Part shown: one piece after another, positions 57,922 to 60,299 of the stretch | Position numbering within the stretch: position 1 is the first letter of the stretch | How the letters are laid out: every line of letters begins with the position of its first letter | The notes under the pieces: generated by a model | Database searches by the model: none | The model's input: the letters and a program-made list of their open reading frames with translations, nothing else | Told to the model about the DNA's origin: nothing | Made by a program: the position numbers and the translations under genes | NCBI RefSeq assembly: GCF_009866965.1 | Contig: NZ_SPKJ01000005.1 | Span: forward strand, 1-64,000 | DNA: 64,000 nucleotides | Direction: 5' to 3' | From: Propylenella binzhouense | GTDB taxonomy: Bacteria > Pseudomonadota > Alphaproteobacteria > Rhizobiales > Afifellaceae

Positions 57922-59721
57922 TCAAAGGCTCGGGCCCGCGGCGGCTTGCCCGGCCTTCACGGGCCCGCCCGCGGCGCCTGCGGAAAGCAGGCCGGCGAGG
58001 AGGCGCTCGTAGCGTGCGCGCGCCTGCTCGAGGCGGGCCGCCTCCTCGGGGCAGCCGGCGGCGAGAACGTCGCGCGCCATGGTCGCGGCCCCGAGCTGGA
58101 AAGCGAGGTAGCAGGGCTTCAGGAAGTCGAGCAGCGGCGGGTCGATCTCGTGGCCGGAGCGCCGGGCCACGATCGCCAGGAGGTCCGCCTCCTCGCGCGC
58201 TGAAAAAGCGAGCTCGAAAACCGCGCCCGCGACGTCCCAAGCCGGGTCCTGGCACCCGACGAGGTCGTGCGCCGCATGGTGGTCGCTTCCGTCGGCCTTG
58301 AGGATTCCGCCGTCCGGCCCGACGAGCCATTCCTGCGCGTGCATCCGGTTGTCGGTCTCGATGCGGCGGAGCCGGACGCGCCGCGGGATCGCGCCGGCAA
58401 GCGATGCCGCCGCGCCGGCGCCGAGCGCTTCGCCGACATTGTGCCGGGCCATCTCGAGCAGCGCCTGAAGGGTTGCGCCGCGCCAGTCCTCCGCCGGGAA
58501 GGCCCGGATCCGGAACCCGATATAGCCGCCGACGGCCTCCACAAGGCGCCGGCGATCGACGGCAAGCTGCGCGAGGGGTCGCCAGCCCTCCATCCAGTGC
58601 TCGGCGAGAAAGCCGTGCCGGAACCCCGCGAAGCCCGGGCCGAGGCCGGCCTCCGCAAGCGCACGCGCCCGGCCGGCCTTCCGCTCGCCCTCGCGCCCGA
58701 GCCCCACGAATTTCAGCAGGAACCGGCCGCGTTCCGTCCGCAGGAGGAACTTGCGCCGCTCCTGCGTGACGTTCGCCGCCGGCCAGTCGGACGCGCGGCC
58801 GAAATGCAGCCGGCGCCACGCACCGCCCGAAATGTCCTCGATCGGTCCGGCCGGGTCGCCCAGGACGTCGCGGAACCATGCCGGAAGCGAGCGCTCCGGA
58901 CCGCTTCTCAGAAGCAGGTCCTCCGGCGCCAGGAAGTGCCGGGCCGACCGGCGCCAGCGGTCCCGCTGGCGGGGCTCGGCCTCCGGGCCCGGCTCGCCGG
59001 GATGGCTTGGAAAGAAGCGGAGCCGCTCGGCGGGCACGCCGGCGGTCTCCAGCATGTCGGCGACGGCTCCGAACGAGCTCCCCGACAGCCCCGGCCCTTC
59101 GTCCACGATCGCGAAGGACGCGGCGCCGTCGGCCGTGAGCATCCTGGAAAAGGCCGGGTCGAGGGCGAGCGCGCGCCGGTAGGGATGGCCGATCGGCCGC
59201 ACCGTGGCCGGCCGGCCCGCGCCTGCGGCCGCCGAGACCGCCGCCGCGAGCCCGGTGCCGATGCTGCGGATCCCGATCACCCGGAGCGGCACCCGCCGCA
59301 GCGGCCGCGCGGCGAGCCAGTAGGCCTCGGGATAGAGGGCGTAGAACGCGTAGCCTTCGGCGAGCCGTCCGGCGATCGCCTCGGGAAGGGGAAGCGCGGC
59401 GAGCGTGCGGAGCGCATCGAACGGCAGCGGGACCGGGCTGCGGAACGTGGTCTCCCAGGACCGGCCGAGCGCCCGCGCGAGCGCCAGCAGGAGCTCCATC
59501 GCGGCGTGCTGGGCCGGCGAGTCGCCGTCGCAGCCGCGCATCGCGAATTCCGCATCGCCGATCCCCTGGGCGAGCGCGCTCGCATCCAGGAAGGCCGACG
59601 CGATCGCCGCGTGCCGGCGGATACCCGGAGGCGTCGCTGGAATTGCCCGGATCGCGCCATCAAGCCCGGCGATCGCGCTTCGCGTTTCGGCCGTCCGGAC
59701 GTGGTCGCCATAGACGAGCAT
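57922..59721 (-). CDS. Phosphoribosyltransferase-like and kinase-like two-part protein of unknown function
   Basis: This 599-aa soluble protein has two recognisable parts. Residues about 145-240 look like a phosphoribosyltransferase: [20 protein letters not shown], then [15 protein letters not shown] (203-217), which resembles the PRPP-binding loop (VVDExxTSGxT). Residues about 295-560 resemble a protein kinase/aminoglycoside phosphotransferase fold: [17 protein letters not shown] (about 324-340) and, near 455-497, [25 protein letters not shown] and [11 protein letters not shown]. The canonical HxDxxxxN catalytic motif is not clear. The first 140 residues resemble nothing I know. It starts (ATG 59721) 2 bases after a dual-specificity phosphatase gene. 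I do not recognise a characterised homologue. Confidence 0.65.
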
Positions 59722-59723
59722 GC

Positions 59724-60299
59724 TCAGGCCGCGAGGTGCCGGTACGCGACCGCGCGGAACGCGTCGAAGTCGGGAGCCGCCATTCCGTGGCGCCGCGTCC
59801 ACGCCGCCCATGCCTCGTACTGCTCGGGGCTCGGCGAGAGGACGGGGCGCCGTTCCTTGGCGAGCCTGAGCGCGCCGAGCGGCGACATGCCACGCTCGAC
59901 CAGAACGCAGAGCGCGAGGAGGGCGGACCGGCCGATCCCGTGTTCGCAATGGAGGAGAACCCGTCCGCCGGCCCCGAGCCGCTCCGACGCGAATGCGACG
60001 CCGAGGTCGAGCATCGGCTGCGACACGGCGCGCAGGTCGCAGGTCGGCAGGTGAAGGAACGCGATGCCGTGCGCGCCGAGCAGGGCGGCGTCGTCGCAGG
60101 CCTCCGAACGCAGGTCGACGACCGCGTCAATGCCGAGGGACCGGCCGAGATGGGGCACGAGACCGGGAGCGAAGCTTCCGCCGATCGCAAGGGATTGCGT
60201 GATCCAGCTCAGATTGCAGGCGGCCGGCGCAGCGCTTCCGGTCGGGGCGTGGCGTTCCGGGGGCTCGCGCGCTGCGGAAGGATCGGTCGTCGGGATCAT
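59724..60299 (-). CDS. Dual-specificity/tyrosine-type phosphatase
   Basis: This 191-aa protein has the cysteine-phosphatase signature C118-E-H-G-I-G-R124 (HCEHGIGRSALLAL) and a candidate general-acid Asp at 88 (LPTCDLRAVS). The N-terminal 25 residues are Pro/Ala-rich. It could act on phosphoproteins, RNA 5' ends or small phospho-metabolites. The coupled downstream gene has kinase-like and phosphoribosyltransferase-like domains, so a shared phospho-compound is plausible. Start ATG 60299, divergent from the HIBCH-type gene. Confidence 0.82.
   Translation of the reverse strand: MIPTTDPSAAREPPERHAPTGSAAPAACNLSWITQSLAIGGSFAPGLVPHLGRSLGIDAVVDLRSEACDDAALLGAHGIAFLHLPTCDLRAVSQPMLDLGVAFASERLGAGGRVLLHCEHGIGRSALLALCVLVERGMSPLGALRLAKERRPVLSPSPEQYEAWAAWTRRHGMAAPDFDAFRAVAYRHLAA

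Follow-up and report, generated by a model that had tools for sequence, protein, structure and literature searches.

A conserved phosphoribosyltransferase-like/kinase-like fusion protein associated with an inositol-oligosaccharide gene cassette in Alphaproteobacteria

Introduction

In the biosynthesis of butirosin and ribostamycin, O-ribosylation of an aminocyclitol glycoside is carried out by the phosphoribosyltransferase (PRTase) BtrL followed by the phosphatase BtrP, and the same transfer-then-dephosphorylation logic is found in cobalamin synthesis, where CobT is followed by the phosphatase CobC. We know of no kinase fusion in the butirosin/ribostamycin O-ribosylation. PRTases are also part of tellurium-resistance (Ter) systems, where, in combination with phosphoesterases, they are predicted to produce nucleoside-like compounds (PMC7824862).

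Here we analyze a 64,000-nucleotide stretch of the Propylenella binzhouense genome (hereafter, the window), in which a preliminary description had singled out a two-gene unit consisting of a cysteine phosphatase and a 599-aa protein, hereafter PRTkin, that combines PRTase-like and phosphotransferase-like halves. The genomic setting of PRTkin resembles butirosin/ribostamycin biosynthesis in logic only: in both cases a PRTase and a phosphatase are found near cyclitol-making and glycosyltransferase genes, but the organisms are different, and the cyclitol is 2-deoxystreptamine in one case and inositol in the other.

Results

PRTkin represents a conserved protein family without a library model

Both open reading frames (ORFs), the 2-bp spacing between them, and the loop-like segment described for residues 203-217 are present on the minus strand (Table 1), and the translated C-terminal half of PRTkin includes the HAQEW and QDPAWDVAG motifs reported earlier. 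The best relatives align over their full length with 36-50% identity, and a 27-row alignment was built from the window protein and 26 full-length relatives. These originate from Hyphomicrobiales (Sinorhizobium, Ensifer, Rhizobium, and Mesorhizobium, including contig NZ_NSFV01000017.1), Azospirillum, and Roseomonas from human skin. In Sinorhizobium the gene is located on pSymB, at positions 253416-255086 for S. meliloti 1021. An N-terminal M-x-x-[YFH]-G is shared by all relatives, which fixes the start codon. Invariant residues number 54 across the 27 rows and include D207-S216 in a loop resembling the phosphoribosyl pyrophosphate (PRPP) loop of PRTases, R152-S153-I154-G155, and R175-P176. With 26 full-length relatives and residues 207-216 invariant, this ORF is far beyond what would be expected by chance.

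Table 1 Coordinates of the features discussed, in the window and in the cassette of the same genome.
Feature	Position	Strand	Evidence or content
PRTkin, 599-aa PRTase-like/kinase-like fusion protein	57922..59721	minus	ATG start; 26 full-length relatives
PRTase-like core of alternating strands and helices, about residues 115-240	59002..59379	minus	Model, Foldseek, profile match
Residues 148-158, at the position corresponding to the PRTase pyrophosphate-binding loop	59248..59280	minus	Aligned with VVGMAETAIGM of PRTase_2
PRPP-loop-like segment, residues 203-217	59071..59115	minus	Residues 207-216 invariant; aligned with LVDDEATTGKTL loop of PRTase_2
APH/choline-kinase-like domain, about residues 300-584	57970..58824	minus	Foldseek LicA; HMM search of PDB
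Altered catalytic segment, residues 457-503	58213..58353	minus	27-row alignment
2-bp gap between the PRTkin and phosphatase genes	59722..59723	minus	TGA-GC-ATG
191-aa dual-specificity-type cysteine phosphatase	59724..60299	minus	PF00782; nearest relative in G946
HCEHGIGR, signature HC-X5-R (C118, R124)	59928..59951	minus	Translation (HCEHGIGRS)
Cassette in the window genome (G000)	contig C153, 98.6-103.9 kb (L071:10609-15941)		INO1, histidine phosphatase, glycosyltransferase, nucleotidyltransferase, TIGR04290 methyltransferase, beta-xylosidase-like
Beta-xylosidase-like gene of this cassette	L071:10609-11538	minus	

PRTkin yielded zero matches against Pfam and NCBIfam, consistent with the earlier description of an arrangement not recognized from a characterized pathway, and eight relatives were likewise without a match in Pfam. 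In every annotated record examined, the product is listed as a "hypothetical protein". No relatives were found in phages or viral contigs, and there is thus no sign that PRTkin is a phage gene. Each of its domains is a member of a known superfamily, while the fusion, its motifs, and the link to an inositol cassette described below are undescribed in the libraries and in the literature searched, for which coverage was partial.

Two weak matches to PRTkin were rejected, one being an autotransporter-like protein (G740) and the other an ordinary choline kinase with a normal catalytic motif (G817). Two fragments were also noted. A decayed copy on contig C1 of genome G1002 (about 1384410-1384895), in which only residues 1-94 and 491-559 match and stops are present, sits beside an intact-looking cassette and looks like a gene loss. 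Outside of the Alphaproteobacteria, an 89-aa ORF on the Comamonadaceae plasmid CP099606.1 (L013:10001-10309) corresponds to the kinase tail of PRTkin only (54% identity), and adjoins a UDP-glucose dehydrogenase gene. Elsewhere in the window, two neighboring ORFs of 622 and 599 aa (51288-53156 and 54410-56209, minus strand) read like putative SLC13-type permeases with inner regulatory domains.

The N-terminal half resembles type-I phosphoribosyltransferases

AlphaFold2 models of PRTkin, built from three sequences only, reached a pLDDT of 71.7 and a pTM of 0.71 for the full-length protein, and a pLDDT of 75.4 and a pTM of 0.81 for residues 1-300. When the latter model was used as a Foldseek query, the two highest-ranked matches, at modest E-values, were a uracil PRTase (probability 0.97, E 0.006) and an adenine PRTase, APRT (probability 0.92, E 0.064). 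Residues 129-238 also matched the PRTase_2 family (PF15609) in a profile-profile comparison against a profile of six PF15609 proteins (E 2.1e-5, 77% probability, score 45.6), for which controls scored at most 23.3 (30 other families) and 21.5 (100 column shuffles). Single PRTase sequences compared to the PRTkin family with hhalign gave no informative match, the PRTase_2 alignment being the one that worked, and none of nine family members matched the PRTase models in Pfam (hmmscan). Both the Foldseek and the profile comparison point towards the PRTase fold that the preliminary description had anticipated for this half.

In the PRTase_2 alignment, the positions of both the pyrophosphate loop and the PRPP loop are in register with PRTkin, the former stretch pairing with VVGMAETAIGMGA and the latter with VDDEATTGKTL. 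At the pyrophosphate-loop position, G150, R152, S153, I154, G155, and L158 are invariant in the 27 rows. The PRPP-like loop shows the expected succession of a hydrophobic stretch, an acidic pair, and then [T/S]-G-x-[T/S], but the acidic pair and the G are separated by one residue more than in canonical PRTases, so that PRPP binding by PRTkin is not certain. PRTkin further differs from PRTase_2 in its loop sequence (DDExxTGxT being the PRTase_2 motif), in its fusion to an APH-like domain, and in its location in inositol-oligosaccharide cassettes. Based on this modeled fold and these motifs, we take the N-terminal half to be a divergent type-I PRTase domain, which is predicted to use PRPP.

The C-terminal half is kinase-like with an altered catalytic region

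For the C-terminal half, Foldseek returned the choline kinase LicA first (E 9.2e-8, probability 1.00), followed by a series of APH-family kinases, with 26 matches at E up to 0.001, and a search of the PDB with the PRTkin family HMM led to LicA as well (4r77, E 0.057, profile positions 326-542). This half shares the fold of LicA and the APH family (PF01633/PF01636), but HxDxxxxN is absent from all 27 family members, in line with the unusual catalytic region noted in the preliminary description. Since this motif is lacking in every relative, the deviation is characteristic of the family and not a sequencing slip. In the alignment to LicA, D457 falls on the catalytic-loop Asp and D496 is also in register, while a Glu (E464, kept in 26 of the 27 rows) is found at the metal-binding Asn, with a longer loop. 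Ten residues of this half are invariant in the 27 rows (D457, K475, D477, D480, H481, H485, Q491, W495, D496, and E503), of which D477 is a candidate for the metal-binding Asp at the DFG-like position. Two other characters set PRTkin apart from LicA and the APH family, namely an invariant D-x-x-D-H-x-x-x-H insert (residues 477-485), and the presumed ATP-lysine position, K337, which is K in most members and R in several. With HxDxxxxN missing and K337 replaced by R in these members, the C-terminal half is possibly not an active kinase, and may instead be a modified kinase or serve to bind a substrate.

The relative conservation of the two halves also bears on an alternative role, in which PRTkin would mainly be an inositol or sugar kinase acting on the cassette product, with the PRTase-like half serving for binding or regulation without catalysis of its own. 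Of the two folds, that of the kinase has the stronger support, D457, D477, and D496 are invariant, and a neighboring inositol-3-phosphate synthase (INO1) supplies inositol phosphate. However, the most strictly conserved run of the protein is the PRPP-like loop, with 10 out of 10 residues invariant, while the metal-binding Asn is replaced and the Lys varies, i.e., the reverse of a degenerate PRTase next to an active kinase, and we consider this alternative unlikely.

The cysteine phosphatase is an occasional companion of PRTkin

The upstream gene encodes a phosphatase with a CX5R site, as initially proposed: the signature is present, and the protein passes the cut-off of the Pfam DSPc model (38.8 vs. 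33.5 bits). Its 2-bp distance to PRTkin suggests coupled translation. Its nearest relative (63-64% identity), in genome G946, is also found just before PRTkin, with a gene order of UDP-xylose-synthase-like gene, phosphatase, and PRTkin, the last two overlapping by ATGA. Such close coupling, found in two genomes from separate families, would be consistent with phosphatase and PRTkin forming one conserved system for ribosylation and dephosphorylation, or for the processing of RNA ends. However, these two genomes are the only ones among 25 loci in which the genes adjoin, PRTkin being without a phosphatase neighbor in the other 23, and a phosphatase homolog was detected in only two of seven genomes tested, with none found in the other five. 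No homolog was found near PRTkin in plasmid records either. The window and G946 proteins form no supported pair in the tree, which therefore fits either one or two origins of the phosphatase pairing. As for a modification of RNA ends, suggested in the preliminary description, no RNA-metabolism gene is among the conserved neighbors, leaving this proposal without support. The phosphatase is an occasional companion of PRTkin and not a conserved partner, and the two-gene unit is largely refuted as a general system, which makes a single conserved phosphatase-PRTkin system very improbable.

PRTkin is an accessory gene of an inositol-oligosaccharide cassette

The conserved partner of PRTkin is a cassette of inositol-oligosaccharide genes, which bears out the suspected association with a biosynthetic pathway. 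Annotated PRTkin neighbors include INO1, a histidine phosphatase, a TIGR04290 methyltransferase, a "beta-xylosidase", glycosyltransferases, and sugar-nucleotide enzymes, often complemented by UDP-xylose-synthase-like genes and sometimes by a TIGR04295 B12/radical-SAM gene. Mapping of 25 PRTkin loci by tblastn placed INO1 in the same neighborhood in 18 cases, mostly in divergent orientation with a 126-170 bp spacer. In two others (G729 and G929), the two genes share a contig at a distance of 10-15 kb, which brings the loci with INO1 within about 15 kb of PRTkin to 20 of the 25. The five loci without a nearby INO1 are those of the window genome, G947, G528, G946, and Azospirillum ramasamyi. In the first four, the cassette was traced elsewhere in the genome, PRTkin having moved away from it. 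For the window genome it is located on another contig (Table 1), and is thus invisible from the window alone.

The divergent arrangement with INO1 is a common one for regulators, and the PRTase fold is known from regulators such as PurR and PyrR, raising the question of whether PRTkin could sense PRPP or nucleotides and regulate the cassette, instead of being a biosynthetic enzyme. We view this as improbable: Pfam revealed no DNA-binding domain, PRTkin is co-directional and at the operon end in Azospirillum and Roseomonas, and a kinase-like fusion would be unexpected for such a regulator.

The association between PRTkin and the cassette was also evident across 398 evenly sampled Hyphomicrobiales genomes. 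A strong PRTkin match was detected in 18 genomes, including one broken copy, and a cassette marker (beta-xylosidase-like, ≥68% identity) in 30, with all 18 PRTkin genomes included in these 30 (hypergeometric P 1.3e-23, a value inflated by the shared ancestry of the sampled genomes, for a pattern that spans at least six families). The core is unchanged in the other 12 cassettes, which are without PRTkin, and PRTkin is therefore accessory and not core. The histidine phosphatase is retained in nearly all of these 12, and must thus have a PRTkin-independent duty, which counts against the scheme proposed below. Since PRTkin was found only alongside the cassette in the genomes sampled, it probably decorates the cassette sugar.

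Several cassette genes can be linked to known families. The INO1 gene matches the mycothiol_INO1 model (E 8e-158), but its 525 bits fall short of the equivalog cut-off, which is 638. In the window genome, the TIGR04290 gene scores 389 bits vs. a cut-off of 300, and the histidine phosphatase matches the alpha-ribazole phosphatase CobC model (E 5e-39), below the equivalog cut-off. This phosphatase also scores on the MSMEG_4193 phosphomutase family, and some cassettes include Gfo and Zn-ADH genes similar to those of inositol/inosose dehydrogenases. TIGR04290 and TIGR04295 are themselves graded only as "hypothetical equivalogs", and literature searches on the cassette, its TIGR family, and the S. 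meliloti genes returned nothing relevant. The cassette is reminiscent of a mycothiol-type pathway through its INO1, its histidine phosphatase, and the adjacent glycosyltransferases, but its INO1 is under the cut-off and no cysteine-ligase gene is among the named neighbors. Mycothiol itself contains no ribose. The "beta-xylosidase" is 68-83% identical across families, a level near that of INO1 and much higher than that of PRTkin, and the copy of the window genome had no match in Pfam or NCBIfam.

This gene content is also informative with regard to the Ter systems, since PRTase_2 is the closest profile match of PRTkin, which might accordingly make a nucleoside-like signal or stress metabolite independent of the oligosaccharide. 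Across annotated loci, however, no TerB, TerC, TerD, or ATP-grasp gene was named near PRTkin (a check covering annotated neighborhoods, with unannotated flanks examined for cassette genes only), which instead associates with inositol and glycosyl genes. A Ter-like role is, in our view, distinctly unlikely.

Discussion

Taken together, we tentatively propose, at somewhat short of an even chance, that PRTkin serves as an accessory (tailoring) enzyme in an uncharacterized inositol-oligosaccharide pathway of Alphaproteobacteria, which would phosphoribosylate a glycoside subsequently trimmed by phosphatases. In this scheme, INO1 would make inositol phosphate, with glycosyltransferases provided by the cassette, and the N-terminal domain of PRTkin would use PRPP to place a 5-phosphoribosyl group onto a hydroxyl of the inositol glycoside or of a precursor. 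The C-terminal domain would bind the acceptor and/or phosphorylate it with an altered metal chemistry. The CobC-like histidine phosphatase would then remove the 5-phosphate or an inositol phosphate, and in the window organism the coupled cysteine phosphatase would perhaps also remove phosphate. The fold assignments, at the strengths given above, the conserved motifs, and the link to the cassette are observations, and all of this chemistry, i.e., PRPP use, the acceptor, the order of steps, and the role of each phosphatase, is inferred from folds, motifs, and analogy to the BtrL/BtrP and CobT/CobC pairs. The ribosylated compound of the preliminary description is a plausible reading. Whether PRTkin goes as far as defining a new class of enzymes, in which a PRPP-dependent phosphoribosyltransferase and an atypical APH-fold domain jointly O-ribosylate an inositol glycoside, is more doubtful, although possible.

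Symbionts and plant-associated bacteria (Sinorhizobium pSymB, Mesorhizobium, and Azospirillum) as well as skin Roseomonas share the PRTkin family over its entire length, yet it is unnamed in Pfam and NCBIfam. It would link the chemistry of PRPP with a set of inositol-oligosaccharide genes that includes TIGR04290 and TIGR04295, and the product of this cassette is predicted to carry ribose or ribose phosphate wherever PRTkin is present. If the proposed role is correct, rhizobia, azospirilla, and their relatives would make an undescribed ribosylated cyclitol oligosaccharide.
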